Positions 6,233 through 52,772 of a stretch of 64,000 nt of DNA are shown here, piece by piece (within the stretch, counting starts at the first letter, position 1; every line of letters begins with the position of its first letter). The position numbers and the translations under genes were made by a program. Below the pieces are notes generated by a model. That model was not told the DNA's origin, did not search any database, and saw only the letters and a list, made by a program, of their open reading frames with translations. This stretch comes from Phycisphaerae bacterium (GTDB taxonomy: Bacteria; Planctomycetota; Phycisphaerae; Sedimentisphaerales; Sedimentisphaeraceae): positions 23,831-87,830 of the forward strand of contig JALWYQ010000037.1 of assembly GCA_027078365.1 (NCBI GenBank), in the 5' to 3' direction.

Positions 6233-8206
6233 TTGATTTCGTTTAGTTCTTCAAAACTAGATATTGATGCAATCTTTTCAAAAGAAGGTGTGCTGTCAAA
6301 ATCCTACGCCCATTATGAGTTGCGCAAAGAGCAGATTGAGATGGCAAAGGGCATACAGGCTGCTTTTGATCAGGGCAAGCATCTAGTGGTCGAAGCTGGA
6401 ACTGGAACTGGAAAAAGCTTTGCTTATCTTGTCTGCGCAATTGATAGAGCTCTAAGAACTAATACCAAAGCGATAATAAGCACACATACGATTAACCTCC
6501 AAGAACAGCTAATCAATCAAGATATCCCATTTTTAGCTAAAGCACTGGATTATGACTTTACTGCTGCTCTGGCAAAGGGGCGGTCAAATTATATCTGTTT
6601 GCGCAGACTTTCCTACGCAACAAAGATGGGGAAAAACTTATTCGATGATATCGTAAGTGAGATTTTCGAGATCAATCAATGGGCATCTGATACAAGTGAT
6701 GGCTCTCTAAGCGATATTGATTTTCCCGTCTCCGCTACCGCTTGGGATCAAGTCAAGAGTGAGCATGGCAATTGTCGAGGTCGCAAGTGTCCTATGTATA
6801 GAGATTGCCACTACTGGCGTGCTAGAAGACGGTTGGAGACATGTGATCTCATAGTTGTCAATCACGCCCTATTGTTTAGCGACTTAGCATTAAAAGAAAA
6901 ATCACTTGGAATACTTCCAGAATACAGCTATATCATCTTAGATGAAGCACACAATATAGAAAATGTTGCCCAAGATCACTTTGGAATAAACATCTCTAAT
7001 TTAACAATAAACTATCTTTTAAATGGTCTCTATAGAAAAGGTAATAAAGGACTTCTCGCCTATACCGATTGCAAAGAAGGAATTGAGCTAGTCAAGCAAT
7101 GTAGAGAATCAGCAGATATCTTCTTTACGCAGGTTCAATCGTGGTATGAAAGTTCGTACCGTGAGACTAACGGTCGATGCCAGAAATATTTTGTCGAAGA
7201 CAATCTTAGTGAGTCTTTGAGAAAACTTAGAATTTCCATAAAAAAATACGCCGACTCTCTTGACCAAGAAAACGATACCAAGCTAGAAGTAATGCGATCT
7301 GTGGATAGGCTAAAGAGCCTAGAACAAGACTTAAAGACTTTCATAACTCAATCCAACAACAATACTGAACACGTTTATTGGGTAGAATCTAGAAATGGCC
7401 GCATCACTAGAACATATCTGCGCAGCGCGCCAATTGATGTTGGAGAAGATATCAAAAAATGCTTATTCGATACCTTTACATCTGTAATAACAACTAGCGC
7501 AACTCTTAGCTGTGGTGCTGGAGCTAAGGAAGACTTCGATTTCTTTTCCAGCCGCATAGGTCTCAAAGACTTTAACGCCTTAATGTTAGGTTCTCCATTT
7601 GATTATGAAAAGCAAGTTACGCTCCATATCGAAGCATCACTACCAGAGCCAAACTCACCTGAATTTGCAACACAGGCAATAGAAGCAATAAAGCGGCATC
7701 TCACAGCGAGCCAAGGAAAGGCATTTGTTCTGTTTACTAGCTATTCAATGCTACATAAGTTTGCCGATGCTATACAAAATTGGTTCTTCGAAAACAATAT
7801 TCAGTTGCTCAAGCAAGGTGACAAACTCGATAGATCAAGTTTACTCGATGAGTTTAAACAGGATACCAATAGCGTTCTTTTTGGCACCGATAGCTTTTGG
7901 CAAGGAGTTGACGTTCCTGGCGAGTCGCTCTCTAATGTCATTATCGTCAGATTGCCGTTTGCCGTTCCAAGCCATCCGCTGATTCAGGGACGTATTGAAA
8001 AGTTGCGTGAAGCTGGAGAGAAGCCTTTTTTCAAGTATCAACTGCCAAATGCAATTATTAAATTCAAGCAGGGCTTTGGTCGTCTTGTGAGAAAGAAAGA
8101 CGACAAAGGTTGCGTAGTTATTCTAGATAGTCGTATTGTTACAAAATCATACGGAAGAAAGTTTATCGAAGCCATCCCTAAATGCAATATTGAGATTGTA
8201 AGATAA
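6233..8206 (+). CDS. DinG/Rad3-type ATP-dependent DNA helicase
   Basis: This is a superfamily 2 XPD/DinG-like 5'-3' helicase of 657 aa. Walker A is EAGTGTGKS at about residue 58, and the DEAH box is in ILDEAHN. Four cysteines between them (CLRRL, then CRGRKCPMYRDC) fit the iron-sulfur domain of this family. The C-terminal helicase motifs include FGTDSFWQGVDVPG and QGFGRLVRKKDDKG. The likely start is the TTG at 6233, 22 bases after the TPR gene. The family unwinds R-loops, G-quadruplexes and damaged DNA intermediates. It is chromosomal rather than part of the prophage. Confidence 0.9.
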   Translation: MISFSSSKLDIDAIFSKEGVLSKSYAHYELRKEQIEMAKGIQAAFDQGKHLVVEAGTGTGKSFAYLVCAIDRALRTNTKAIISTHTINLQEQLINQDIPFLAKALDYDFTAALAKGRSNYICLRRLSYATKMGKNLFDDIVSEIFEINQWASDTSDGSLSDIDFPVSATAWDQVKSEHGNCRGRKCPMYRDCHYWRARRRLETCDLIVVNHALLFSDLALKEKSLGILPEYSYIILDEAHNIENVAQDHFGINISNLTINYLLNGLYRKGNKGLLAYTDCKEGIELVKQCRESADIFFTQVQSWYESSYRETNGRCQKYFVEDNLSESLRKLRISIKKYADSLDQENDTKLEVMRSVDRLKSLEQDLKTFITQSNNNTEHVYWVESRNGRITRTYLRSAPIDVGEDIKKCLFDTFTSVITTSATLSCGAGAKEDFDFFSSRIGLKDFNALMLGSPFDYEKQVTLHIEASLPEPNSPEFATQAIEAIKRHLTASQGKAFVLFTSYSMLHKFADAIQNWFFENNIQLLKQGDKLDRSSLLDEFKQDTNSVLFGTDSFWQGVDVPGESLSNVIIVRLPFAVPSHPLIQGRIEKLREAGEKPFFKYQLPNAIIKFKQGFGRLVRKKDDKGCVVILDSRIVTKSYGRKFIEAIPKCNIEIVR

Positions 8207-8301
8207 GCTTATACACACATCTGGCTTTTCTAGAAAACTCTAGCCCATATCTTAATCTTGGATTATAATTACCGTCGGTTGTACGAATTATTAGAGTAGG
8301 T

Positions 8302-8739
8302 ATGGATATGAAAGAAAAAAACAGCAATAAAACCCAAGAAACAAAATCACCGTTTCAAATCAATTCAACTGCTATGGAACAAGAACTAGAAGACCTTAGA
8401 GTTGAACTTCAAAATTATGAGAAAGAAAAAGAAAACATAAGGTTGATGTTAGGTAAGGTTGGTGGAGTTCCATCGTTCCATTCTAAACTGATAAACATTC
8501 TTTTTATTATCGCACTCGTCGCGACATTAGTGGTTTCAATATTAGTTCACAACTCAAGCGTAAGGCTATTAATGCTTGAACTAGCATCGGCTGCGGTGTC
8601 AATAAAGATTATATATCTTATTCATTGTTTAACGAAGGTAAACCATTTCAAATTCTGGATGCTATCCTCTATTGAGTGGCGTCTCAATCAAATGATGAAA
8701 GAAATTCGAAAAATCTCAGACCACATCGAGAATGATTAG
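8302..8739 (+). CDS. Small membrane protein with N-terminal coiled coil, function unknown
   Basis: The product is 145 aa. Residues 20-50 form a highly charged predicted coiled coil (EQELEDLRVELQNYEKEKENIRLML). Two hydrophobic segments follow (about 60-80, LINILFIIALVATLVVSILV, and about 85-108), then a charged C-terminal helix. The arrangement suggests an inner-membrane protein with both ends in the cytoplasm. A TATAAT lies at 8264-8269, but no matching -35 is convincing. A convergent gene lies 34 bases downstream. No family recognised. Confidence 0.7.
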   Translation: MDMKEKNSNKTQETKSPFQINSTAMEQELEDLRVELQNYEKEKENIRLMLGKVGGVPSFHSKLINILFIIALVATLVVSILVHNSSVRLLMLELASAAVSIKIIYLIHCLTKVNHFKFWMLSSIEWRLNQMMKEIRKISDHIEND

Positions 8740-8772
8740 TTTGTTTCACATAAAACCAAGGATACAATGAAA

Positions 8773-9936
8773 TTAATTTCTAGAAAATCTCTTGGCCAAA
8801 CAGACCACAAATAGTGACGTCATTGAAGCTCCGCACATAGCCTCAATCATGGCCAAAAATTTTGTAAAAGTATTGTTAGCTGCCGGTGCAATATCACCAA
8901 AACCAAGCGTAGTAAACGTTGTTGTACTAAAATATATAGCATCAACAATATTTCGCGATGGAATTATGCCGCCTTCACGGTTAGTAAGTTCTCCCTTCCA
9001 CATATACAAAGCCGCGCAGAATAGAACGACTAGTATCGCAGAGAGTAAAACGCGCATAGGTCTTTCACCGTAACCAAATAGAAACTTACCAAAAATAAGC
9101 TCTGGAAGCATTCTCAGTCCAAAAATCCATCTCAACACCTTTTGCCCCAACGTAAGACTATCGTAATCTCGACCTCTAAATTTGCGATAAAACATTGCGC
9201 ATCGTTCTTTGTAAAAACAGTCACCACTTTGACTGTAATAACCAGAATCACGATTCGCTTGTTTTAGAAAACGCCAAAATGTCTCATCAACGCCATAATT
9301 GCTTTTGACAAAAACAATACCGTCACTAATTGGGACGGCCCTATTGCTACAGTATGCCCCTGTAAAATCGACAATGGAATGAAACTCCACATTACTGAAA
9401 TTTGCACCTTTAGAGAATGCTGTATTAACAAATCTTGCATCTTTATGGAAAACAGAGTTGCTAAATAAGCCGTAACCATTAAACTCAACCGTTCTAAACA
9501 GCGCAGACGAACGGAAATCAACCTCTGTAAATGATGCTACCCCATTGAATATACAACCATCAAAACCTGCCTGACCATTAAATCTAGCGCCGCTAAAACG
9601 AGTCTGACCATTAAAGATAGAAGAATTGAAAATAACTTCACGTTTAAAGACAACATCTAGAAAATCCTGTTCGTTCCACGGTGATGCAAAGAATACATTG
9701 TCGTGGAATTGACATCCATAGAGACGAATCTTTTGATCAAGAACTATAACCTCTTTGTGATCTTCTTGATGTATAGTCAACTCACTCAGATCATAGTTAG
9801 TTCGCTTATTGACAAGAGAACCCAAGTCAAGGGGTTCTACAATCTCACACCTAAATAAATCAATATCTTCACCATTTGCAATAGCTTGAAGAATCTCTGA
9901 TGCTACTACTTTTTGATTTTCTCTATGAAAAGCCAT
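8773..9936 (-). CDS. Pentapeptide-repeat protein fused to a two-TM potassium channel
   Basis: The 387 aa product joins two modules. The N-terminal half (about residues 75-195) is a pentapeptide-repeat beta helix of A(N/D)LXX-like type, for example SGARFNGQAGFDGCIFNGVASF. The C-terminal part has a membrane helix (VLLSAILVVLFCAALYMW), a pore loop and a second helix. The pore loop TTTFTTLGFGDIAP has the K+ selectivity filter TLGFGD. This matches Ion_trans_2 channels of the KcsA/MthK type with a cytoplasmic pentapeptide domain in place of RCK. It is transcribed alone, between convergent and divergent neighbours. The gating signal is unknown. Confidence 0.88.
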   Translation of the reverse strand: MAFHRENQKVVASEILQAIANGEDIDLFRCEIVEPLDLGSLVNKRTNYDLSELTIHQEDHKEVIVLDQKIRLYGCQFHDNVFFASPWNEQDFLDVVFKREVIFNSSIFNGQTRFSGARFNGQAGFDGCIFNGVASFTEVDFRSSALFRTVEFNGYGLFSNSVFHKDARFVNTAFSKGANFSNVEFHSIVDFTGAYCSNRAVPISDGIVFVKSNYGVDETFWRFLKQANRDSGYYSQSGDCFYKERCAMFYRKFRGRDYDSLTLGQKVLRWIFGLRMLPELIFGKFLFGYGERPMRVLLSAILVVLFCAALYMWKGELTNREGGIIPSRNIVDAIYFSTTTFTTLGFGDIAPAANNTFTKFLAMIEAMCGASMTSLFVVCLAKRFSRN

Positions 9937-10009
9937 TGTTAAAGTAGTTCCTAAACTAAATTAATTGAAAGATATTTTTAAGCTATCAACCTATAAACAC
10001 TAACAGACT

Positions 10010-10972
10010 CTAATCATTACGTTCGAGAAGTAATCTTAGAATCTCTTCTTTTGTCGGCAGAGATTCTTGAAAACCGTACCGAGATGCGGTTATAGCAAAG
10101 GCCGCATTGGCAAAAGATACCGCTCGCTCAATACTATCTCCAGAAGCAATACTTGCTGCTAGAGCGGCTGCGAAAGAGTCTTGCGAACATGAACGGTCCA
10201 CGATATCTAATTCATAGCTTTTAACACGGTTAACACCATCTCTGTTAAAGATACAGACATCTTTTCTACCTGTATTGACAACTACCGTTTCAAAACCTTG
10301 CGAAATGAGATTTGCCCCGATCTGATTTGCGAGTTGCATATTAGACGAAATTGCCTTATCCAAACTGCTGCAATCCTCAACCTCAACGATGAGAATATCG
10401 ACATACTTGTAATTAGTCGGCAGATTACCTATGCCTCTGAGGGTCTCGTCGGAATCTAATTTTACGGTCAAAATAGATTTAGTTCCACGCATTTCTGCCA
10501 TGTTAATTGCAGCGGAAATTACTCCACTAGGCAAAGCCGCATCAATAAGGCAGGCGTCGCAAGAGGCTATAAGTTGCTCAACAGGGATAGATTCTATAAG
10601 TTCTGGGTTAATAGCGAAGTTAGCTCCGGGCGAGAATACAGTGGCGTTCTCACCATCTGAATCAACAAAAGTCATGGAGGTGCCTGTATTTTTTGCGTCT
10701 GCTACATCTAAGAAGCTAATATCAATATTCTTCTCCTTCAGAGCACTACTAACCATATAGCTGAAACAATCAGAACCTATCTTACCAACCAAAGAAACAT
10801 CACAACCGCACTGGGCTGCAGCTATAGATTGATTAACTCCCCCACCGGCACAATTACATGAAAATCCACTACCTATGAAAGTCTCTCCTGGCGCAGGAAC
10901 CTGACTACACTTAACAGCCATATCCACGTAGCAGGTTCCTACAACAACAATTTTTGGCACTCTCTGAGTCAT
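10010..10972 (-). CDS. PfkB-family sugar or nucleoside kinase, divergent anion hole
   Basis: This is a ribokinase-fold protein of about 320 aa. The N-terminal signature is VVVGTCYVDMAVK...PAPGETF followed by GGGVNQSIAAAQCG, the equivalent of the PfkB GG-x-G-x-N substrate box. The C-terminal ATP/anion-hole motif, normally DTTGAGDAF, reads DRSCSQDSF: the catalytic Asp is kept but Gly-Ala-Gly is replaced. The ATG at 10972 has GGAGAG five bases upstream and is preferred over TTG codons further out. Activity on ribose, fructose or nucleosides cannot be decided, and the altered anion hole makes a changed or reduced phosphotransfer plausible. Confidence 0.8.
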   Translation of the reverse strand: MTQRVPKIVVVGTCYVDMAVKCSQVPAPGETFIGSGFSCNCAGGGVNQSIAAAQCGCDVSLVGKIGSDCFSYMVSSALKEKNIDISFLDVADAKNTGTSMTFVDSDGENATVFSPGANFAINPELIESIPVEQLIASCDACLIDAALPSGVISAAINMAEMRGTKSILTVKLDSDETLRGIGNLPTNYKYVDILIVEVEDCSSLDKAISSNMQLANQIGANLISQGFETVVVNTGRKDVCIFNRDGVNRVKSYELDIVDRSCSQDSFAAALAASIASGDSIERAVSFANAAFAITASRYGFQESLPTKEEILRLLLERND

Positions 10973-13907: not shown

Positions 13908-13980
13908 GGGGCCGTAGCTCAGTTGGGAGAGCGCTACACTGGCAGTGTAGAAGTCGTGAGTTCGAGTCTCATCGGCTCCA
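13908..13980 (+). tRNA. tRNA-Ala (anticodon GGC)
   Basis: The 73-nt cloverleaf has acceptor GGGGCCG/CGGCTCC containing the G3-U70 wobble pair, the alanine identity element. The anticodon stem is CTACA/TGTAG with loop CTGGCAG, so the anticodon is GGC (Ala, GCC codons). The T-loop is TTCGAGT and the discriminator is A. CCA is not encoded. Its 3' 42 nt are part of the prophage attachment site, so the current 3' half was supplied by the phage. Confidence 0.97.
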
Positions 13981-13982
13981 TT
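13939..13982 (+). repeat. Prophage attachment site attL (44-bp direct repeat)
   Basis: These 44 bases, from the anticodon loop of tRNA-Ala to two bases past its end, recur without mismatch at 52729-52772. The flanking bases differ on both sides (A versus G upstream, C versus A downstream). Integration rebuilds a full tRNA here. Confidence 0.97.
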
Positions 13983-14108: not shown

Positions 14109-15356
14109 ATGCGCAGAAATTACACTTTCAAAGGGTCCATCTTTTGCCAACGTGGACGGCATTACTGGAAGGTTAAAGACCCCCAAACTCGCAAGCGCAG
14201 AACCTTTGCGCTTAAGCCTGCCGGAAGTAGATTCGCAACCTCAGACAAACGGATGGCCAAAGAGATAGCACAACGCAAATGGGACTCCTGGCAAGCGACC
14301 GGAGGCGGCTCGAATACGATTGGCGAGTTAATTGAACTCTACCTTAAATATGTCAAGGAAACTAACGCTCAAGATTCAAATCAGCCATACAAAATCGAAC
14401 TGGCTCTTAGGTTGATCGATAATGTTTCGCTACCGCCCTGCGAATACAGCCCTCTTCTTTTCGATGATACGCGTCAAAAACTAATCAACAAAGGAATAAC
14501 AGCACACACAATCAATACCAAAATGCGGTTTATTATTAAGATGTTTAAGTGGGCAGCCAGCCGAGAGATAGTATCACCACTTACGCCTTATGCTCTGGAA
14601 AATGTTGAAAAGGTAAAAAATAACCATCCAAAATTACGTAGAACAAAGATAAGACAGCCAGCACCGCTGGAAGATGTTCGCAGGACGCTTGCATATTTGC
14701 ATCCGATCTTACGAGCAATGGTGATAACTCAGCTCTATACCGGGACTAGGCCAAGCGAAATGTTACGAATGAAACCATGTGAGATTGACACCAGCGATGA
14801 GATTTGGATATATACGCAAAATAAACATAAAACTGACTATAAAGACGGAGCAAGACCGAGAATTATTCCGCTCAATAAACAAGTCCAAAATGTTTTAATC
14901 CCATTGATCGCGGAGAAAAAGCAGAGCGAATACCTCTTCTCTCCTGCAGATGGCAGAGAGATTGCCACGCAGATTCGTAGCGAGTGTCGCCAAACACCAA
15001 AGAGCTGCGGTAATAGAAGAGGCAAGTCTAGCAGCTATAGACCAGGAGGATTGCAGCTGCGTGAATGTTACGACCACGGATCATATCGAACAGCAATAAG
15101 ACGAGCCATTATGCGGCTTAATCGCGACCTTAAAGCCAGAGACGGCGACAGCTATGCACCAATGCCAATATGGACACCATATCAGCTCAGACATGCAGCA
15201 GCGACCGCGATTAATGCAGTTGATAACGTTGATGCTCTTGGTTTTGCTCAAGCGCTGCTTGGCCATAAAAATAGATCAACCACCGAAATTTACGCAAAAA
15301 TGGGACTGGAAAAGGCTAAAAGAGCAGCAGAGATTTTGAATGATATTGAGATATAA
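14109..15356 (+). CDS. int: Prophage tyrosine integrase
   Basis: This 415 aa tyrosine recombinase is probably responsible for integration at the adjacent tRNA-Ala. The catalytic residues are visible: Arg in TGTRPSEMLRM, the HxxR box in YQLRHAAATA (His-Arg order LRH) with LGHKNRST, and the nucleophile Tyr in TTEIYAKMG. The N-terminal region looks like the AP2/SAM-like arm-binding domain, rich in Arg and Lys. AAGGAG sits eight bases before the ATG. It is the only gene on the left edge and is read away from attL, opposite to the late genes that follow. Confidence 0.95.
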   Translation: MRRNYTFKGSIFCQRGRHYWKVKDPQTRKRRTFALKPAGSRFATSDKRMAKEIAQRKWDSWQATGGGSNTIGELIELYLKYVKETNAQDSNQPYKIELALRLIDNVSLPPCEYSPLLFDDTRQKLINKGITAHTINTKMRFIIKMFKWAASREIVSPLTPYALENVEKVKNNHPKLRRTKIRQPAPLEDVRRTLAYLHPILRAMVITQLYTGTRPSEMLRMKPCEIDTSDEIWIYTQNKHKTDYKDGARPRIIPLNKQVQNVLIPLIAEKKQSEYLFSPADGREIATQIRSECRQTPKSCGNRRGKSSSYRPGGLQLRECYDHGSYRTAIRRAIMRLNRDLKARDGDSYAPMPIWTPYQLRHAAATAINAVDNVDALGFAQALLGHKNRSTTEIYAKMGLEKAKRAAEILNDIEI

Positions 15357-23817: not shown

Positions 23818-24216
23818 TTAAAAACCCTCAAACGCTTTCTTTAAATCGCTAACATTCTCGCTTGTAATAAGAATCGCATCGCTTTTCTTTTCCATGTATG
23901 GATTAAAATCGCTAGGCTGTTTTGCTTTATCAGACTTATCAAAACAAGTGCGATTGTAAAGCAACGCCATTAACGTTGACGATCTCGACCAAGCATCCTC
24001 TCGGACGCCATCAGCCATCCAAACTAATTCGCTTAGTTTGAATGGTGATGGGTCAATTCCGACTATACCTGCGAGCTTGTAAATTAGCTCCCAAAGGCTT
24101 GGTTGACGACTTTTTGACCGTCCAGGGCGTTCGCCTCTTCTTCCGCCCTCTTCACTGCCAGCGTGATCACTTCTGCACTCTTCTCGATGATCTTGGCGCG
24201 ATCCATCCGACCGCAC
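23818..24216 (-). CDS. Tail assembly chaperone, -1 frameshift extension (gpT-like)
   Basis: This frame has no convincing start of its own: its first 40 residues are a shadow of the zero frame, rich in Arg, Ser and Gly. Protein-like sequence begins just after the slip site (SRQPSLWELIYKLAGIVGIDPSPF). The predicted fusion reads DGQK then SRQPSLWELIYK and runs to FEGF. It is translated only by ribosomes that shift -1, giving a minor gpGT product, as in lambda. Its stop overlaps the tape measure start. Confidence 0.85.
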   Translation of the reverse strand: MRSDGSRQDHREECRSDHAGSEEGGRRGERPGRSKSRQPSLWELIYKLAGIVGIDPSPFKLSELVWMADGVREDAWSRSSTLMALLYNRTCFDKSDKAKQPSDFNPYMEKKSDAILITSENVSDLKKAFEGF

Positions 24217-44023: not shown

Positions 44024-44182
44024 TCAAGACCTCTCAATTATTCTCAATAGTGCAATTTTAGTCAGCCTCAAAACTATTACAAGCTAATAATTGAGGATAA
44101 TTGAGAATTTTTGAGTGTATAATGCGTAACAGTATGAGTTATAAAGAGATACGGGAATTGAGAATTTTTGAGAAATTTCGAG
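44024..44182. promoter_or_regulatory. Phased TTGAG operator arrays in divergent control region
   Basis: TTGAG occurs at 44091, 44101 and 44111 (exact 10-bp period), again at 44158 and 44168 with TCGAG at 44178, and as its complement CTCAA at 44024, 44034 and 44043. A TATAAT (44118-44123) abuts the middle triplet. The sites flank the starts of the leftward early operon and the rightward gene at 44198. Sites on one DNA face every helical turn suggest cooperative binding by a small dimeric repressor. Confidence 0.72.
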
Positions 44183-44197
44183 AAATGCAGGCGAAAC

Positions 44198-44560
44198 ATG
44201 GCTAGATCAGACACAGAAGCAATGTTGGGAGCTAATTTGCCCAGAGATTTCGTTGATATATTCTGGACAAAAGCTATGCCAGGTAGCTCCAAAGCGAGTA
44301 AGGCTCAAGTAGTATTGGCGATGGCTAACGCTTGGGTAGATATGCCAAATGAAGTCAAAAAACATTACCTCTTTCCCGAAGATGAAAGCGATGGGTTTGA
44401 TGACGTCATAGACGCTAAAGTCCGATCCGCAATAAAAAAAATGCTCCCAGAGCTAACCAAGAGCATTTTAAGTGAGATTAAAGGCTACAACCTCATGGAC
44501 GAAGCTCTAAAAGACGCCGAAGAAGACCGCGCAGACAATGTTCGTCACAGTGCCGGATAA
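44198..44560 (+). CDS. First rightward prophage gene, unknown (immunity-region protein)
   Basis: The product is 120 aa (MARSDTEAMLGANLPRDFVDIFWTKAMPGSSKASKAQVVLAMANAWVDMP...), with an acidic middle and a helical C-terminus (KVRSAIKKMLPELTKSILSEIKGYN). It is controlled by the divergent operator region, so it may be the lysogenic regulator. No HTH is clear. Its 3' end resembles a second fragment at 48149-48301, marking the edges of a cargo block. Confidence 0.65.
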   Translation: MARSDTEAMLGANLPRDFVDIFWTKAMPGSSKASKAQVVLAMANAWVDMPNEVKKHYLFPEDESDGFDDVIDAKVRSAIKKMLPELTKSILSEIKGYNLMDEALKDAEEDRADNVRHSAG

Positions 44561-44794: not shown

Positions 44795-46261
44795 ATGCAA
44801 AATTTTCATGATTGGAAAGAAAGAAAACTGTCAATTAACAAGCTCTTCCTAGATAACAAAAACCCTAGACTCCCCATATCGTCTAGGAACCTAACTCAAA
44901 CCGATCTCCTCTCTGAATTAGTAGCAAAAGACGATGTCTATGAGCTTGCCAAAACAATTACAGACAAAGGCTATATGCCTATTGAAAGTTTAATTGTTAT
45001 AGAAGAAAGCGGCAAAAAGGTTGTAGTGGAGGGCAATCGTAGACTCTCCAGCCTAAAATTGCTCCTAGATCCAAATAAAATAAGCGGGACAATATCAAGA
45101 AAGTTCAGAGCTTTATCACAGAAAATTGATGCCGAAAACATCAAGAAGGTGAAAGTAACAATTGCCCCTTCTCGCGAGGCCGCCAACGTCTACATTGCTA
45201 TGAAGCACACTAAAGGCGGCGGCACAAACAGGTGGAACCATATTGAACAAGCAAGATTCTACAAGGCAATATACAGCGAAGGAAAGACTACATCTCAAAT
45301 AGCAAAAGATTTCTCTATTTCAAACAGCGAAGTAATTAAAGAATTAAGACTACTAACCATGTACGAATTGGCTTGCGAACTAGACCTGCCAGAAGATATT
45401 GCTGCCAAAGTCAGAGACTCTCGCCACTTTCCATCTACCACTCTCGAAAGAATATATGAAAACCAAGACTATAGGGATTGGCTCAGCCTTGACTTCAAAG
45501 GCGAATCTATGGAATGTAAAACAAGTCGGGCTGAATTTAATAAAGGTTACTCTAGGATAGTAACAGATATTGCTTTAGGAAAAATAACATCTCGATCCCA
45601 CAACGACAGAGCTGCTGCCCAAGAATATCTTAAAGAGAATAAGGACTATAAGCCTAGCCCAAGCAAAAAAGAGAAATTCACTTACTCTTGTTTTGCCGGC
45701 TTTAAACTGCTGTCTGATAAAAAAACAGAGAAAGCATCAGCCCCCAAAAAGAAATCAGCTCCCCAAAAAAACCAGAGGCTGGTACCTAGCAAATTCACTT
45801 GCAATACCAGCTGTAACAGGCTTAACGACGTTTTCGCTGAATTCAAGAAAATGAAGATTAACGAAAGCCCTAACACGATAGCTATAATGCTTAGGTGTAT
45901 CCTTGAAATGTCACTTAATCATTACGTTGAAAAAATGGGCTACAGCAAAAAAATCGCCGAATTCTATAGAAGAAAACAGAAAAAAAAGAACGACTGGAGT
46001 CCGTCCCTTAATCAAGTCGTCAATTATCTTTTAGAGCAAGATACTATTGTTTGCGGTAAAATAGAACCTGAAGTAATAAAATCAATAAAAAATATGGCCA
46101 AAGACAATTCTACCTTCTATAATACTGACATGTTAAATGCATTCGTCCACAATAGATTTGTTATTGCTGACGAAAGAGTGCTAAGAGGTTTCTGGGAGCA
46201 ACTCGAACCTCTATTTAAAATCGTGTTGAATAAAGAATATTACGAAAACGAAGAAGGATAG
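44795..46261 (+). CDS. ParB/Srx-domain protein, cargo
   Basis: The product is 488 aa. The N-terminal ParB/sulfiredoxin-like fold reads NKLFLDNKNPRLPISSRN...DVYELAKTITDKGYMPIESLIVIEESGKKVVVEGNRRLSSLKLL. The GNRRL motif marks the nucleotide/DNA-processing site of this superfamily. An HTH-like helix pair follows (TTSQIAKDFSISNSEVIKELR), then a Lys-rich linker and a helical C-terminal domain with LNAFVHNRF. The family includes defence-associated nucleases as well as segregation proteins. GAGGG precedes the ATG. The dam gene starts 3 bases after the stop, so they form an operon. Confidence 0.78.
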   Translation: MQNFHDWKERKLSINKLFLDNKNPRLPISSRNLTQTDLLSELVAKDDVYELAKTITDKGYMPIESLIVIEESGKKVVVEGNRRLSSLKLLLDPNKISGTISRKFRALSQKIDAENIKKVKVTIAPSREAANVYIAMKHTKGGGTNRWNHIEQARFYKAIYSEGKTTSQIAKDFSISNSEVIKELRLLTMYELACELDLPEDIAAKVRDSRHFPSTTLERIYENQDYRDWLSLDFKGESMECKTSRAEFNKGYSRIVTDIALGKITSRSHNDRAAAQEYLKENKDYKPSPSKKEKFTYSCFAGFKLLSDKKTEKASAPKKKSAPQKNQRLVPSKFTCNTSCNRLNDVFAEFKKMKINESPNTIAIMLRCILEMSLNHYVEKMGYSKKIAEFYRRKQKKKNDWSPSLNQVVNYLLEQDTIVCGKIEPEVIKSIKNMAKDNSTFYNTDMLNAFVHNRFVIADERVLRGFWEQLEPLFKIVLNKEYYENEEG

Positions 46262-46264
46262 AGC

Positions 46265-47131
46265 ATGGCAAAAACCTATAGCCCACTTAGGTACCCAGGC
46301 GGTAAAAGTGCACTGATGCCCTTTTTGATGGAAACGATCTACTTGAATCAGCTTCAAGGGTGTACGTATATAGAACCTTTCGCCGGAGGTGCTGGCGCGG
46401 CTTTAGGACTGTTGTTCGGCGAGCATGTAGACAAGATTGTAATAAACGATGTTGATTTTTGTATATACGCCTTTTGGCATTCAATTATGAATAATACGGA
46501 TAAATTCCTTGCCCTCGTAAACGATACAGATGTCAATATTGAAGAATGGCACAAACAACGAGAAATATACAATAAGTGCGACAAGAGATCGTTATTGAAG
46601 GTGGGTTTTGCAACCTTCTTTCTCAATCGCTGCAATAGATCTGGAATTCTCAAAAAGGCAGGGCCAATAGGCGGTAAGGGCCAGAGTGGTAACTGGAAAA
46701 TAGATGCAAGATTCAACAAAAAAAATCTCATAGAACGCTTAGAGCGCGTCGCTTCCTACGGCGAGAGAATAGCTGTGTCCAATTTGAACGCAAACGACTT
46801 ATTGATAAACATCAACTCACAAAAGTCAAATGAGAATATATTAGTTTATCTAGACCCACCTTACTATAACAAGGGAGCAGAGCTATATATAAACCATTTC
46901 CTGCACGACGATCACGCCAACCTGTCCACCCAAATGTGCAAATACGAAAGCTTCAAATGGTTAATTTCTTATGACAATGTAACTCAAATAAAAGACATGT
47001 ATCAAGAAATGAACATAATTGAATTTTCACTAAACTACCACACCAGCAACCCTCGCAAGGGTAGCGAAATCTTGATCTTTAACGACACCATTAAAGTCCC
47101 TAGTACCCTTCTGGGTTCAAAGACAGCGTAA
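46265..47131 (+). CDS. dam: DNA adenine methylase (D12 class)
   Basis: This N6-adenine methyltransferase is 288 aa. It opens YSPLRYPGGKSALMPFL, has EPFAGGAGAALGLLF (SAM motif I), and YLDPPYYNKGAELY (catalytic DPPY motif IV). It is likely to methylate a short site such as GATC. AAGGA precedes the ATG within the end of the ParB-like gene. Encoded in a ParB-like/methylase operon within the prophage, it may protect phage DNA or form part of a restriction-type cassette. Confidence 0.92.
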   Translation: MAKTYSPLRYPGGKSALMPFLMETIYLNQLQGCTYIEPFAGGAGAALGLLFGEHVDKIVINDVDFCIYAFWHSIMNNTDKFLALVNDTDVNIEEWHKQREIYNKCDKRSLLKVGFATFFLNRCNRSGILKKAGPIGGKGQSGNWKIDARFNKKNLIERLERVASYGERIAVSNLNANDLLININSQKSNENILVYLDPPYYNKGAELYINHFLHDDHANLSTQMCKYESFKWLISYDNVTQIKDMYQEMNIIEFSLNYHTSNPRKGSEILIFNDTIKVPSTLLGSKTA

Positions 47132-47245
47132 GATGTCCACTTTCTCGTCATTTCTTGCCATAACTTAGCACAGAGAAACACGACACAACCAATTACAACC
47201 AAACAATTTACGAAACAAACAATCAAGACTCTTAGAAACACAGTA

Positions 47246-47869
47246 TTGCCCTACCATGAATTCGCAAAAGATCTTGTTAGAAACTGGCTAGTTGAACATA
47301 AATTTAAAGGTTGGAACAAAACGGAAACCACTGGCAGGCCCGTGACACAAGAAATGAAAGCAAAACAAGCCGCATTCATTGCGAAAGAGCTCGCAGACCA
47401 TTCAAAATGGCGGTCGCATGGAAGATCTTTGAAAATAAAAAATCTGAAAGAAATAGGATTGCGAATAACAAAGGTGGATGAAACCCCAGATTTTGCCGAT
47501 GTAGTGCATAGAATCCAAACGGTATGCGGGTTACTGTTTGACAACACCAGCATTTTTAAGGTTTTTGCAACCAAAGATCGCAAGATATTTAGGCAAGAGA
47601 TGCAAGGTGGCAGCAGGCATCAAGTTCCGCAGTTTCACAATAGCCCGTCTGCCGCATCAGTTGTGAAGTATTGCCCAAACTGCCGTACCAGACATAGTTA
47701 TTACGCCAAGTTCATTAATAATCCACAGATAGACGCTGATTTTGCAAGAAAAGGAGTGAAACCGCTCCCTAAAAATGCTAAAATAAAGTGTGCTTGTGGT
47801 GTTGAGATTGATTTATCTGAATGGAAAAAAAAAGTAGAAATGGATTTTGGAAGGAAGTTGATTTTTTAA
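47246..47869 (+). CDS. Possible 5'-truncated Clp-fold serine protease remnant with zinc ribbon
   Basis: The 207 aa product begins at a TTG. It has a helical segment (HEFAKDLVRNWLVEHKFKGW), then KELADHSKWRSHGRSLKIKNLKEIGLRITKV, and a C-terminal zinc ribbon (YCPNCRTRHSYY...IKCACGVEIDL). The SHGRxL plus LGL-x-(V/I) pattern resembles the C-terminal part of SDH/SppA-like Clp-fold proteases, but the half that would carry the catalytic Ser is absent. The frame stays open for about 80 bases upstream. Either a truncated remnant or an unrelated small protein. Confidence 0.4.
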   Translation: MPYHEFAKDLVRNWLVEHKFKGWNKTETTGRPVTQEMKAKQAAFIAKELADHSKWRSHGRSLKIKNLKEIGLRITKVDETPDFADVVHRIQTVCGLLFDNTSIFKVFATKDRKIFRQEMQGGSRHQVPQFHNSPSAASVVKYCPNCRTRHSYYAKFINNPQIDADFARKGVKPLPKNAKIKCACGVEIDLSEWKKKVEMDFGRKLIF

Positions 47870-47890
47870 TTTATATTGTGGGGCATAGAA

Positions 47891-48061
47891 ATGGAATTGG
47901 AAGGAACAACATTTATTGACGACACAGTGACAACTTTTCTAGTGGAGACAAAAGACGGCAAATTTGCCGAAGTAACAGCCTGTCCTCCGGATGTTATTAG
48001 GATGAAAGCAGAAAGAATAATGGTAGAAGATGAGTATTATAGATATAAAACCACAACTTGA
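47891..48061 (+). CDS. Small acidic protein, unknown
   Basis: The 56 aa product (MELEGTTFIDDTVTTFLVETKDGKFAEVTACPPDVIRMKAERIMV) is encoded 21 bases after the truncated protease-like gene and just before a strong terminator. The start at 47891 has a weak GGGGC site. It could be a partner or antidote of the cargo genes. No family recognised. Confidence 0.5.
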   Translation: MELEGTTFIDDTVTTFLVETKDGKFAEVTACPPDVIRMKAERIMVEDEYYRYKTTT

Positions 48062-48083
48062 TCATCTACAAACTTAGACACTT

Positions 48084-48112
48084 AAGACCCCATCTAATTG
48101 GGGTCTTTTTTT
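48084..48112 (+). terminator. Rho-independent terminator of the ParB-Dam cargo operon
   Basis: AAGACCCCA (48084-48092) pairs with TGGGGTCTT (48099-48107) around a 6-base loop, followed by a run of T to 48112. Confidence 0.9.
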
Positions 48113-48148
48113 ATGCGATAAGCGAATTAGCAAGCATCTAAACAATTA

Positions 48149-48301
48149 GCAATCAAAGACATGCTCCCAAAACTAACCAAAACGCTCAAGGATGAAATTT
48201 TCCGCAGCAAAGCCAAATCTATTGTAGATAAATCTTCTCAAGCTGCTCAAGCAGCCCAGCAGCAAACTCTGGACAAGAGTGGCTCAACAGGAGCCGCTTA
48301 A
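48149..48301 (+). pseudogene. 3' fragment of a paralogue of the gene at 44198
   Basis: In frame from 48149 the sequence reads AIKDMLPKLTKTLKDEIFRS then KAKSIVDKSSQAAQAAQQQTL and ends at a TAA at 48301. The first part matches AIKKMLPELTKSILSEIKGY of the 44198 gene, with about three quarters of the first 36 bases identical. A TAG lies just upstream in frame. It is a fragment left behind when the ParB-Dam block was inserted or duplicated, although a 46 aa start at 48161 cannot be ruled out. Confidence 0.65.
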
Positions 48302-48550
48302 TCTTTTCGGCTAGTAAATGTAGTTCAAAGTTGCGGTTTTCCATAACAATATATCAAAGAATCACAAAGCCAGATTAACCAAGCGACAAAAGAACAAAAC
48401 GGTCTTGCAAAAAGAATGCCTCGGCAGAACGAGGTCCACACCTATTTTAGCAGCCGCCTTTCTTTGTATTTGATTAAACCAACATCTCAGGGTAAAATGT
48501 GCGTCCATTAGAAACATTTACTTTATTGAACTTAGAGACCAAGAAATAAA
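48302..48550. other. Gap before the methyltransferase cassette
   Basis: No gene is seen. The 13-mer TGCCTCGGCAGAA (48417-48429) repeats that at 15411-15423. Upstream of the next ATG there is only AGAGACCAAGAA, a weak ribosome site, which may keep expression low. Confidence 0.35.
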
Positions 48551-51500
48551 ATGTCTTTTGCAAGTCGGCAATTAATTGAGAAATTTGATCTGACAAGAGT
48601 ATCTGCGCCCCTTTTTTTCCGTTCTGCGGATGATATAGAGAGATTTGCGGGCAAGCACCCTTATTCCCACCTAATGAGACGAGCATGGGAAACAATGCAT
48701 CTCAATGGCATACTATGCGTCGATGGCCGCCCTACAGTCTACTTCAAAGAAGTTAAACGCTTGGATTCTATTAGGCAACATAATCGTTATCGCAAATTCT
48801 GGAACCAGGGCCTGGCAACGCTTCTTGTTGTAAGCAGTCCTGACCAGGTTCAGGTTTTTTCGAGCTTGGCAAAGCCGGTCAAAGAAGATTCGCAAGTAGA
48901 CAATGAGGGTCGACTTGTAGAAATACTTGATTCTACCACTAAAGTACTCAACTTTGTCAAAAGGGTTCAGAGCGGACAGATATACAGAGACAAACCTCAG
49001 TGTTTCGACTCAAACCAGACGGTCGACAAGTTCCTTCTCCGGAATTTAAGCGAAGCACGAGATCAATTACACCAACATAACAATTTGAGTTATAAAGTTG
49101 TACACGCACTTCTTGGCCGTGTCATCTTCGCTTGCTACCTTATTGAACGCGGCATTATCGATGAAAGCCTTTTTGCTGAAGCAAATGCAAAGGGAATCAA
49201 AAGCCTTCACGAGCTTCTAACGCAATACGATAACACCAAAGCAAAAAAAATCCTCTACGACCTTTTCGCAGTATTACAGCGGCATTTCAATGGAAGCATG
49301 TTTGATGATACCGTCGAAAAAGAAAGGCCGCAAATTGACGACAAGCACATTTCGATTCTTCGTCGTTTTTTAATTGGTGAAGAATTAAAAAGCAAACAGT
49401 CTACTTTTGATTTCTGGGCCTATGATTTCAGCGTAATCCCAATAGAAACTATAAGCTCTATTTACGAAGAATTCCTTGGTGCTGAGGATAAAGCCGGAAA
49501 GAGAAAAAGCGGGGCATACTATACACCTAAACACCTTGCTGAAATGGTAGTCGATGTTGCTACCTCTGAATGGAACAGCCTTCTCGATAAGAGAATTTTG
49601 GATCCTGCCTGCGGGTCAGGAATATTCCTTGTGATAATTTTTAACCGGATAGCAGAGCAATGGCGATATAAAAACCCAGGAGTTCACAATATAACTCGTG
49701 CAGAGGCTCTATTAGAAATCATCAGAGAAAAGATATGCGGTATAGATGTCAACGAAACCGCTTGTCGTATTGCCTGCTTTAGCCTCTACCTTGCCTTCCT
49801 TGATCAATTGAAGCCAAGAGAAATTTATGAACTGGAAGCGAAACGTGGCAAGATACTTGACAATTTCCTCGCCCTGAAAGACAGTGCTTATTCCAACAAT
49901 GAATCCCCCGTCATTTTCGAAGGCGATTTCTTCGAAAATACTATACCAGCTGCAAAAAACTTTGACTTGGTTATCGGCAACCCCCCATGGGTAAGCAGGG
50001 GCAGGGCTTCAGACGCTAAGGCGTTAGACTGGTGCTTGAGCGAAGACAATAACCCGTATTTAGACGATGCCCCAAGGGCAAAGGCTGATCGTAAAAAATA
50101 TTTTCTTCCAGCCAGACAAATTGCTCATGCTTTTATGTGGAAATCTTCGGTTCATTTAAACGATAACGGTAAGGCATGCTTGGTTTTATCAACAAAGGTA
50201 CTTTTCAACAATTCTACAGATAAATTCCAGGCTGGCTGGTTCTCAAACGTTACTGTAGAGAAAGTTGTACAACTGTCCGACTGGCGACATATTCTTTTTG
50301 AAAACGCTGTCAGCCCATCTGTAATAGTTAAGTACAACGCCCGTAAGCCCAAAGACGATTATTCTATTGACTACGAAGTACCAAAGGTCAGTAGTTGTGA
50401 TCCGAGAAGAGGGGTCATTCATATATCACCTGAGGACCAAAAAACTATCCGACTATTCGACATACAGCAATATGCCAAGAAAAACAAAATCTCTATAGCG
50501 TGGAAAGAAAAGTTCTGGGGAACAAGGCGTGATAATCTCCTGCTGGATAGATTGCTTGAGATGCCCTGCCTCGGAGAACTGGTTAGTAAACCAAAGGAAA
50601 AAACAAACCTCTTCATAGCAAGCCAAGGCTTCCAGCCATTTAATGAGGAACGGTATTCGGAAGGCAAAAAAGCTTATGGTGAACCACAACCTGCTTGGTG
50701 GACACCAGAACAACTATATATTGATGCCAAGAAAATCGGGCCAAACTTAATCATAACCAAAAAAAATTGCGAAAAAGTAGGACCCAGATTTAAGAAATTA
50801 CACAGAATCCGGGACAAAAGAATATACACGCGTCCAAAGGTTCTAGTGAATAAGGGCTTCACGAAAGCTGTTTATTGCGACTTTGAAGCAATTTTCCAAG
50901 ACGCCATATATTCTATTTCTGGTTCACCATCTAATTATAGATTGTTAATGTTTATTGCAGCAGTTTTAAATTCAAAACTTGCTAAGTACTTTCAATTTCA
51001 CACCTCCGCTAATTTAGGTATAGAGAGGGAACAAATTTTTCCTACTGAATATAAACGGATTCCATTCCCTCTTCCTAAAGACACTGAAAACCCGGAAGAA
51101 TCAGATAGGATAATAAATGAAATAGCCATGCATATGAGTGATCTTAAAGCATTGATCGAGAAAGACTTTATGCTTCAAGAGGAAAAGGTAGCTTTGGCTG
51201 CTGAAAAAATAGAGGTTTTGCTATATAAATATTATGGAATATCTCAACATGAGCAGTTGCTCATTGATGATACTGTGAATATTTTCAAAAGTAGCATGAT
51301 GCCAACCTCCATCAATAGCAGAGTCAAAACCATCGGATGCCCTACCCCTAACGAAAGAAAAGGTTATGCAGAGTTGCTCTGCTCAATATTAAATACATGG
51401 GCCAAACGAAGCGATTTTCATGTGAATGGCAGGGTTGAATACTCAGAGATTTTAGGCACATCAATAGTAACACTTGTGAAATCTCATAAAACTGAGCGGT

Positions 51501-51730
51501 ACAGTGAGACGAAAACATCCGACGATCTGCATGCAGCTTTAAAGAACATTCAAAATGCCCTACCCAAAAAGATGGGTAAATTTGTTTATCACCGTCACCT
51601 GAAAGTCTTTGATGGGAATCAGCTTTATATTCTTAAACCACTTTCACGAAGGTACTGGACAAAAACAGCGGCTATAAATGATGCTGATGAAATTGCTGTA
51701 GCAATACTCTCTTCAGAAGGGAGTCGTTGA
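48551..51730 (+). CDS. Type IIG/Eco57I-like adenine DNA methyltransferase
   Basis: The product is 1059 aa. An N-terminal domain of about 300 aa (LCVDGRPTVYFKEVKRLD, WNQGLATLLVVSSPDQVQVFS) precedes the methyltransferase. The SAM motif is ILDPACGSGIFLVIIFNRIAE, and the catalytic NPPW is in FDLVIGNPPWVSRGRA. A target-recognition region follows (about 680-900), then a helical C-terminus. The N-terminal D-x10-15-ExK-like DGRPTVYFKEVK may be a relic nuclease site but lacks a clear ExK. The next gene overlaps it (TGATG) and encodes a PD-(D/E)xK fold, so the pair is probably one restriction-modification-like system. Confidence 0.85.
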   Translation: MSFASRQLIEKFDLTRVSAPLFFRSADDIERFAGKHPYSHLMRRAWETMHLNGILCVDGRPTVYFKEVKRLDSIRQHNRYRKFWNQGLATLLVVSSPDQVQVFSSLAKPVKEDSQVDNEGRLVEILDSTTKVLNFVKRVQSGQIYRDKPQCFDSNQTVDKFLLRNLSEARDQLHQHNNLSYKVVHALLGRVIFACYLIERGIIDESLFAEANAKGIKSLHELLTQYDNTKAKKILYDLFAVLQRHFNGSMFDDTVEKERPQIDDKHISILRRFLIGEELKSKQSTFDFWAYDFSVIPIETISSIYEEFLGAEDKAGKRKSGAYYTPKHLAEMVVDVATSEWNSLLDKRILDPACGSGIFLVIIFNRIAEQWRYKNPGVHNITRAEALLEIIREKICGIDVNETACRIACFSLYLAFLDQLKPREIYELEAKRGKILDNFLALKDSAYSNNESPVIFEGDFFENTIPAAKNFDLVIGNPPWVSRGRASDAKALDWCLSEDNNPYLDDAPRAKADRKKYFLPARQIAHAFMWKSSVHLNDNGKACLVLSTKVLFNNSTDKFQAGWFSNVTVEKVVQLSDWRHILFENAVSPSVIVKYNARKPKDDYSIDYEVPKVSSCDPRRGVIHISPEDQKTIRLFDIQQYAKKNKISIAWKEKFWGTRRDNLLLDRLLEMPCLGELVSKPKEKTNLFIASQGFQPFNEERYSEGKKAYGEPQPAWWTPEQLYIDAKKIGPNLIITKKNCEKVGPRFKKLHRIRDKRIYTRPKVLVNKGFTKAVYCDFEAIFQDAIYSISGSPSNYRLLMFIAAVLNSKLAKYFQFHTSANLGIEREQIFPTEYKRIPFPLPKDTENPEESDRIINEIAMHMSDLKALIEKDFMLQEEKVALAAEKIEVLLYKYYGISQHEQLLIDDTVNIFKSSMMPTSINSRVKTIGCPTPNERKGYAELLCSILNTWAKRSDFHVNGRVEYSEILGTSIVTLVKSHKTERYSETKTSDDLHAALKNIQNALPKKMGKFVYHRHLKVFDGNQLYILKPLSRRYWTKTAAINDADEIAVAILSSEGSR

Positions 51731-52389
51731 TGTCAGTAGCTATAGTTGGAGAGGCTGGAGGCTGGAAGAAGGATCTGTTTCCAGACGAGCTAATCCCTGA
51801 TATATTGGAATTTGTCGTGGAAACTTGGAAGGCTTTCAACAAACCCTGCCGCCTTGACCATGAAGTTCTGATTTCTAAGGCCTTTACAAAAAAACTTCAG
51901 CAAGAAAAAAACATACAGAACAAGTTGCCATTCCAGATACGACCTGAAATTGAAACTTCCGATTCTCCAATGGGAAAGGATGGCCGAATAGACATCTGTT
52001 TTATCTTTATGGGTACTACAAGGGAAAATATTTACTTCGCTTTTGAGTGCAAAAGATTGCGTATTCCCCAACAAGCACCCAAAAAGCCTGTGACTAACAA
52101 TAGTGACTATGTTGGGGAGCAAGGCATGATGTGTTTTGTTACAGGAAAATATAGCAGTAACGTAAAACATGGAGGAATGATCGGATATATTATGGATGGC
52201 AAAACCACCTCTGCTATCACCTCTGTCACAAAACTTATAAATAAAAAACGGTCAGACCTTAAGCTATCCCTCGGATCAAGCCTTGACGCTTCCTCAATCA
52301 TGGCAAAACATCCAAATATAAAGGAAACCAGACACAACCTCCTCAACAGAAAGGAATTTACAATCCATCATGTTTTCCTCCCTGTATAA
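51730..52389 (+). CDS. PD-(D/E)xK nuclease-like partner of the methyltransferase
   Basis: The 219 aa product carries GKDGRIDICFIFMGTTRENIYFAFECKRL: Asp followed about 15 residues later by Glu-Cys-Lys on the next strand, as expected of a PD-(D/E)xK nuclease core. GEQGMMCFVTGKYSSNVKHGGMIGYIMDG follows. The ATG shares bases with the upstream stop, implying coupled synthesis. It is probably the cleavage subunit. An alternative is a catalytically inactive scaffold. Confidence 0.7.
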   Translation: MSVAIVGEAGGWKKDLFPDELIPDILEFVVETWKAFNKPCRLDHEVLISKAFTKKLQQEKNIQNKLPFQIRPEIETSDSPMGKDGRIDICFIFMGTTRENIYFAFECKRLRIPQQAPKKPVTNNSDYVGEQGMMCFVTGKYSSNVKHGGMIGYIMDGKTTSAITSVTKLINKKRSDLKLSLGSSLDASSIMAKHPNIKETRHNLLNRKEFTIHHVFLPV

Positions 52390-52728: not shown

Positions 52729-52772
52729 CTGGCAGTGTAGAAGTCGTGAGTTCGAGTCTCATCGGCTCCATT
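52729..52772 (+). repeat. Prophage attachment site attR
   Basis: Perfect copy of the 44-bp attL repeat. Only the 3' part of a tRNA is present (no acceptor 5' strand or D arm), so it is not a functional tRNA. It is the displaced host 3' end. Confidence 0.97.

Follow-up and report, generated by a model that had tools for sequence, protein, structure and literature searches.

Our comparative analyses suggest that two overlapping genes at one edge of a prophage in a Phycisphaerae bacterium encode a split, type IIG-like restriction-modification system made of two subunits, in which a small nuclease would act in trans with a large methyltransferase. They lie in a window (the whole stretch of DNA that was analysed) of 64,000 nucleotides of contig JALWYQ010000037.1 (assembly GCA_027078365.1, forward strand positions 23,831 to 87,830). 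Judging from sequence comparison, we give this interpretation a probability of roughly three in four. A previous sequence-only reading of the window had described the two open reading frames (ORFs), one of 1059 and the other of 219 amino acids (aa), as a methyltransferase and nuclease cassette; both ORFs are indeed intact (Table 1). They share a single base, the stop codon TGA of the first (51728-51730) overlapping the ATG of the second (51730-51732), and a TTG three bases upstream of this ATG would extend the small protein to 220 aa.

The association of the two genes is essentially obligate in both directions. Related genomes, plasmids and viral contigs, together with a scan of 84,980 species genomes, supplied the small-protein homologues. 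A methyltransferase homologue lies directly upstream and on the same strand in 105 of 107 non-identical near-full-length cases, and the remaining two (L133, L138) are at contig ends. Where a small gene has no adjoining methyltransferase, it is in most cases a decayed or cut piece (L087, L122, L142, L163). In the reverse search, the small gene was found directly downstream of 11 of the 11 plasmid methyltransferases examined and after all 15 evaluable methyltransferases (E <= 1e-40) of 392 genomes. These 15 comprise 12 established by coordinates plus G171:C649 and G097:C376 (cut by contig end) and G359:C56 (frame-broken); G171:C269, which runs off its contig, was left out. The recurrence of the pair in more than 100 non-identical loci speaks against chance, and the proposal that these proteins form a pair is borne out by the searches in both directions. 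Taking the small-gene start nearest to the methyltransferase stop, the distance is -4 in 50 cases, -1 in 11, -14 in 10 and 0 in 9. Gene pairs overlapping at -4 or -1 often encode heteromeric complexes (PMC10666635), and we count the prevalence of this geometry in favour of subunits of one complex. Both proteins also appear to have evolved together: over 86 loci their tree distances correlate with r 0.91, against at most 0.28 among 2000 permutations, and 50 of 83 bipartitions are common to the two trees.

Several lines of evidence identify the small protein as a likely nuclease. Its GRIDI...FECK segment contains D88 and E106-x-K108, and E45 lies in the first helix; together they make up the E...D...(D/E)xK residues expected of a PD-(D/E)xK enzyme, conserved among the homologues as given in Table 1, with Y127, H202 and H214 likewise constant in the same alignment. 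The AlphaFold2 (AF2) model, with a predicted local distance difference test (pLDDT) of 87.8 and a predicted template modelling score (pTM) of 0.85, shows a helix at 45-63, strands at 68-72, 89-93 and 103-110, short helices at 124-128 and 134-137, and a strand at 147-154. This order of elements and the positions of the residues fit the expected core, and the case for a PD-(D/E)xK fold is therefore strong by motif and predicted topology. Family libraries contributed little. The sole Pfam match is PDDEXK_9 (E 0.12, below the cut-off), a family also matched by 6 of 26 relatives (best E 0.001), and no family model for the protein was found in NCBIfam, PADLOC or PHROGs. The idea that it might be the detached N-terminal nuclease domain of a classical type IIG enzyme was discarded, as profile comparison found no relation.

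The large protein was initially described as an Eco57I-like methyltransferase with an unusual N-terminal domain, and both parts of this description hold. It carries the DPACGSG and NPPW motifs and matches the Pfam families N6_Mtase (E 5.4e-19) and Eco57I (E 1.3e-16), and all 87 homologues keep its methyltransferase residues D351, G355, N477 and P479 without change. A weak match to the specificity family TaqI_C covers aa 748-832. The protein thus combines a gamma-class methyltransferase (DPxxGSG, NPPW) with a fused C-terminal target-recognition domain (TRD), as type IIG enzymes do, and the PADLOC model REase_MTase_IIG (PDLC03623) covers its aa 53-1059 with E 1.6e-84. Its AF2 model (pLDDT 87.0, pTM 0.89) matches PDB structures of CamA, BrxX/PglX, BpuSI and MmeI. 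The other hallmark of type IIG, a PD-(D/E)xK nuclease in the same chain, appears to be missing. The region aa 39-104, modelled as helix, two strands, helix and two strands, looks like a former nuclease domain deprived of its catalytic Glu. Seven distant relatives from the same taxonomic order (L177-L183) are classical type IIG enzymes; they have N-termini reading PDY...EAKK...QLRRYAW, an intact PD-(D/E)xK site, and no small gene adjoins them. From the QLRRYAW/HRxFWNQG segment onward the family aligns in register with these relatives, which places the catalytic Glu at Y64 of the window protein. Among the residues listed for this column in the 87 homologues, Asp and Glu do not occur (57 have Tyr), and the Lys that follows is kept in only 32. 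In some members (L100, L101) PDAV...YLK can still be read, as if it were an eroded nuclease site. The pattern is complementary: where the N-terminal site is intact there is no small partner, and where the site is lost the small partner is present.

Sequence specificity seems to reside in the large subunit. The large proteins of L117 and L112 are 78-100% identical along the chain and only 46-50% identical at positions 681-800; identity is 93% in the core, 55% in the TRD and 83% between the small nucleases. In L079/L080 the same three values are 69%, 32% and 77%, and in L092/L096 identity likewise falls in the TRD between flanks that stay similar. Over 37 independent closest pairs, the identity of the nuclease follows that of the N-terminal and C-terminal parts of the large protein (r 0.89 for each); its partial correlation with the TRD is -0.26, without positive residual dependence. 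Since TRDs are swapped while the nuclease remains unchanged, we assign specificity to the methyltransferase subunit, to which its variation is confined in these comparisons. The small protein has little beyond its nuclease core and lacks any long variable region that would change with the TRD. In three loci (L125, L151, L190) the large gene is frame-broken and the nuclease reading frame is kept, which is more readily understood if the nuclease depends on its partner and does no harm alone.

Taken together, these observations are consistent with the following mode of action. The large subunit would recognize a DNA sequence through its own TRD (aa ~676-835) and methylate adenine within the recognized site, its N-terminal domain being an ex-nuclease domain without the catalytic Glu. 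The small subunit, produced by coupled translation from the overlapping gene, would be a minimal PD-(D/E)xK nuclease unable to recognize a target by itself. It would dock on the large subunit to form a physical complex, with the dead N-terminal domain and the helical region as the probable candidates for the contact surface. In this complex it would cut DNA near unmethylated sites, so that host DNA would be spared and incoming phage or plasmid DNA cleaved. As prophage cargo, the system would protect the lysogen.

Some observations weigh against this scheme. Compared by profile with the classical nuclease domain, the N-terminal region falls in register, but the score is weak (E 0.09, probability 0.6% alone), and the strong full-length match to classical type IIG enzymes (E 4.3e-40) begins only past the PD...ExK strands; the view of a dead domain therefore leans on a hand alignment, based on motif and register, and on predicted topology. 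For the small protein, Foldseek searches of PDB and BFVD returned nothing below 1e-3 (best E 0.029; McrC at rank 2, E 0.048). The earlier proposal of a PD-(D/E)xK nuclease thus stands as far as the conserved motif and the predicted order of elements are concerned, but found no significant structural match. Finally, sequencing errors or very recent events could account for the broken methyltransferase frames.

A different division of labour is conceivable in which the pair is an orthodox type II system, the 219-aa protein being an autonomous sequence-specific endonuclease and the large protein only the protecting methyltransferase. Autonomous restriction enzymes can be as small as this, and pairing and coevolution would be expected equally. 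Yet an enzyme reading DNA by itself would have to switch along with the TRD, and the TRD replacements seen in L117/L112, L079/L080 and L092/L096 come with no change in the nuclease beyond that seen in the rest. The small protein also barely exceeds a nuclease core and has no variable segment following the TRD, and its frame is retained in loci with a broken methyltransferase, so that we consider this arrangement unlikely. A single-chain type IIG enzyme that cleaves alone, with the small protein regulating, nicking or repairing, would agree with the PADLOC class of the large protein, and the N-terminal strand of the window protein happens to read YFKEVK. It is, nevertheless, hard to reconcile with a catalytic column without Asp or Glu and a poorly kept Lys, with classical relatives (PDY...EAKK) that do without the small gene, and with the full catalytic set sitting in the small protein; we give it very little credence.

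Scarcely better placed is a BREX/Pgl-like (bacteriophage exclusion) mechanism, in which methylation would mark self and exclusion would occur otherwise than by simple cleavage by the partner. The large-protein model does align end to end with BrxX/PglX structures, and weak sequence matches to the BREX PglX and MAD2 models exist. Membership in BREX and in the MADS systems was rejected because these matches stay far short of the curated cut-offs (48.5 bits versus 400 for BREX-2 PglX, 48.7 versus 720 for MAD2). Moreover, PglZ, BrxC and further BREX genes are missing from the listed plasmid neighbourhoods, and the constant partner is nuclease-like and not a BREX gene. Type I restriction-modification was likewise set aside: neither protein has a motor domain, the TRD is in the methyltransferase chain and the partner has only 219 aa. 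Least probable of all, to the point of being nearly negligible, is an epigenetic module of the phage or host that performs no restriction and whose small protein would serve replication or recombination. Orphan adenine methyltransferases are common and the copy studied is in a prophage. Against this, copies of the pair are mainly on plasmids and chromosomes; a tblastn search of 50,697 phage records with the small protein gave no match, and a single-protein scan of viral contigs with it found nothing, two loci being recovered by an alignment scan of 2.9 million viral contigs. The neighbours also point elsewhere, with the defence system PD-Lambda-5 adjoining the pair here and toxin-antitoxin or restriction genes found beside it in other places.

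Table 1. Positions in the window of the cassette, its predicted functional parts and the prophage ends.
Feature	Position	Strand	Basis or remark
N6-adenine DNA methyltransferase / specificity subunit (predicted), 1059 aa	48551-51730	+	Intact ORF; Pfam, PADLOC, AF2
Degenerate PD-(D/E)xK-like N-terminal domain (putative), aa 39-104	48665-48862	+	Glu position is Y64; proposed docking site
Gamma-class adenine methyltransferase core, aa 299-600	49445-50350	+	DPACGSG at aa 351-357, NPPW at aa 477-480
TRD (predicted), hypervariable swapped segment, aa 676-835	50576-51055	+	Weak TaqI_C match; sharp drop in identity
TTGATG junction, overlapping stop and start	51727-51732	+	Sequence
Small PD-(D/E)xK nuclease subunit (predicted), 219 aa	51730-52389	+	Intact ORF; conserved motif; AF2
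E45 codon, predicted active-site glutamate of helix 1	51862-51864	+	Conserved in 105/105 aligned
D88 codon, predicted active-site Asp, start of second strand	51991-51993	+	106/107
E106-C107-K108 codons, ExK motif, third strand	52045-52053	+	E and K each 107/107
attL side, 44-bp repeat	13939-13982	+	Within and just past tRNA-Ala gene 13908-13980
attR, 44-bp copy of the tRNA-Ala 3' end	52729-52772	+	Exact repeat

The genomic context agrees with the earlier description of a prophage-borne defence cassette at the attR edge. The exact 44-bp repeat marks the two ends of a prophage integrated at tRNA-Ala, the cassette ending 339 bp inside attR, and a 415-aa ORF at 14109-15356 is presumably the integrase. 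Between ~15.5 and 42.3 kb almost every long prophage ORF reads on the minus strand, and the long ORFs from 44795 to 52389, cassette included, read on the plus strand, in line with the description of a cassette that runs against the late genes. The ATG at 48551 has no strong Shine-Dalgarno sequence ahead of it (AGAGACCAAGAAATAAAATG), as expected from the weak ribosome site noted before. Directly 5' of the cassette and on the same strand, PADLOC identified a PD-Lambda-5 system at 44795-47131 (A, 488 aa, E 5.8e-71; B, 288 aa, E 1.2e-116); the attR edge would therefore bear two consecutive defence systems, the first of which the sequence-only reading had not mentioned. A defensive role for the cassette is inferred, and this neighbour fits it. 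Between the two systems lies a 207-aa ORF (47246-47869) that gave no credible hit with Pfam, NCBIfam and PADLOC and might be part of the PD-Lambda-5 unit. Judged by eye, the stretch 48163-48300 (MLPKLTKTLKDEI...) resembles the C-terminal part of ORF 44168-44560 (MLPELTKSILSEI...), as if it were a decayed duplicate of it.

Named records carrying the pair come from 13 phyla; in one more, Omnitrophota, just a small-gene fragment is present. Two apparent natural gene fusions (L143, L159) were rejected, their long ORFs being 5' extensions that overlap the methyltransferase in another frame, and L075 was dropped as a chance match. In five loci (L125, L151, L186, L190, L195) the large gene is split in two frames with the nuclease frame remaining; the annotated halves overlap by 4 bases in L186 and L195 and could be true M/S-type splits instead of mutations. 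Proteobacterial plasmid copies (L185, L187, L192, L008, L009, L191, L193) often have a small regulator-like gene just 5' of the methyltransferase, either MerR- or XRE-like or unnamed, of ~155 aa and with a 4-base overlap, perhaps encoding a controller protein. On the Bradyrhizobium elkanii plasmid pBel61 (L009), the pair adjoins an Eco57I/MmeI-like enzyme of 1376 aa at 6731-10861, which matches HSDR_N weakly. On the Paracoccus plasmid p2 (L188) and the IncP plasmid pRSB223 (L186), the pair is close to antibiotic-resistance genes (sul2; OXA-1, aadA1, qac).

The two-part system is apparently widespread and still without description or name. The sequence-only reading had matched the pair to no named system; this holds for the small protein and for the pair, which remain unmatched in family libraries, but not for the methyltransferase alone, which is already covered almost over its full length by PADLOC REase_MTase_IIG. 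In the open-licence literature we found no split or two-subunit type IIG system, a search outside which REBASE and subscription papers lie, so that a description may exist in a database or unpublished. More tentatively, and at somewhat less than even odds, the pair may represent a distinct architecture spread over 13 phyla, in which a IIG-like methyltransferase with a dead docking or hetero-pairing domain obligatorily recruits a small nuclease devoid of TRD, possibly as an active/dead nuclease pair. If the split is real, large proteins currently filed as complete type IIG enzymes would be inactive in cleavage without their unannotated neighbour and their annotation would have to be corrected, a point relevant for defence surveys that count single genes. 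The natural TRD swaps accompanied by a nearly identical nuclease make the split testable and perhaps usable, with one small nuclease serving many specificities.

Comparison with known systems helps to delimit the proposed one. The gamma-class adenine methyltransferases CamA and M.BseCI are among the best fold matches of the large protein; they have about 550-585 aa and no N-terminal domain. To our knowledge, their definition includes no nuclease partner gene. BREX PglX/BrxX can be structurally aligned with the large protein from end to end; unlike BREX, the pair scores far below the sequence cut-off, the BREX partners are absent from the listed neighbourhoods and the partner is nuclease-like. 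With type I systems (HsdR/HsdM/HsdS) the pair has in common that specificity belongs to the modification complex and that a separate nuclease subunit follows this specificity; by contrast, it has no helicase or translocase, its methyltransferase and specificity are fused, and two genes suffice. An evolutionary link with type I systems has been discussed, in a model passing from fused to separate enzymes via hypothetical intermediates (PMC6158711). A stable two-gene form, with specificity and methylation in one chain and a non-specific nuclease apart, would be such an arrangement in nature. Of published ideas the nearest comes from Haloferax volcanii, where the 219-aa PD-(D/E)xK protein HVO_A0006 was hypothesized to complete the nuclease-less IIG-like HVO_A0237 as a split enzyme (PMC4389544). 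HVO_A0006 is rare and flanked by transposons, a piece detached from a classical type IIG N-terminus and placed away from the methyltransferase. Here, in contrast, no similarity of the small protein to that classical domain could be detected, the large protein retains an N-terminal domain, and the two form a stable operon in 13 phyla. Single-chain type IIG enzymes (PDLC03623/PDLC03603; BpuSI 3s1s, MmeI 5hr4, DrdV 7lo5) have an N-terminal domain followed by a helical connector, a gamma-class N6-adenine methyltransferase and a C-terminal TRD; the large protein has the same layout and matches them in near full-length profile and overall fold. In contrast with them, the nuclease site within the chain is absent in every homologue and an intact site lies in a separate overlapping gene. 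As type IIG is defined by nuclease and methylase in one chain (PMC4081073), the pair falls outside it by this defining feature, yet it probably works like one.

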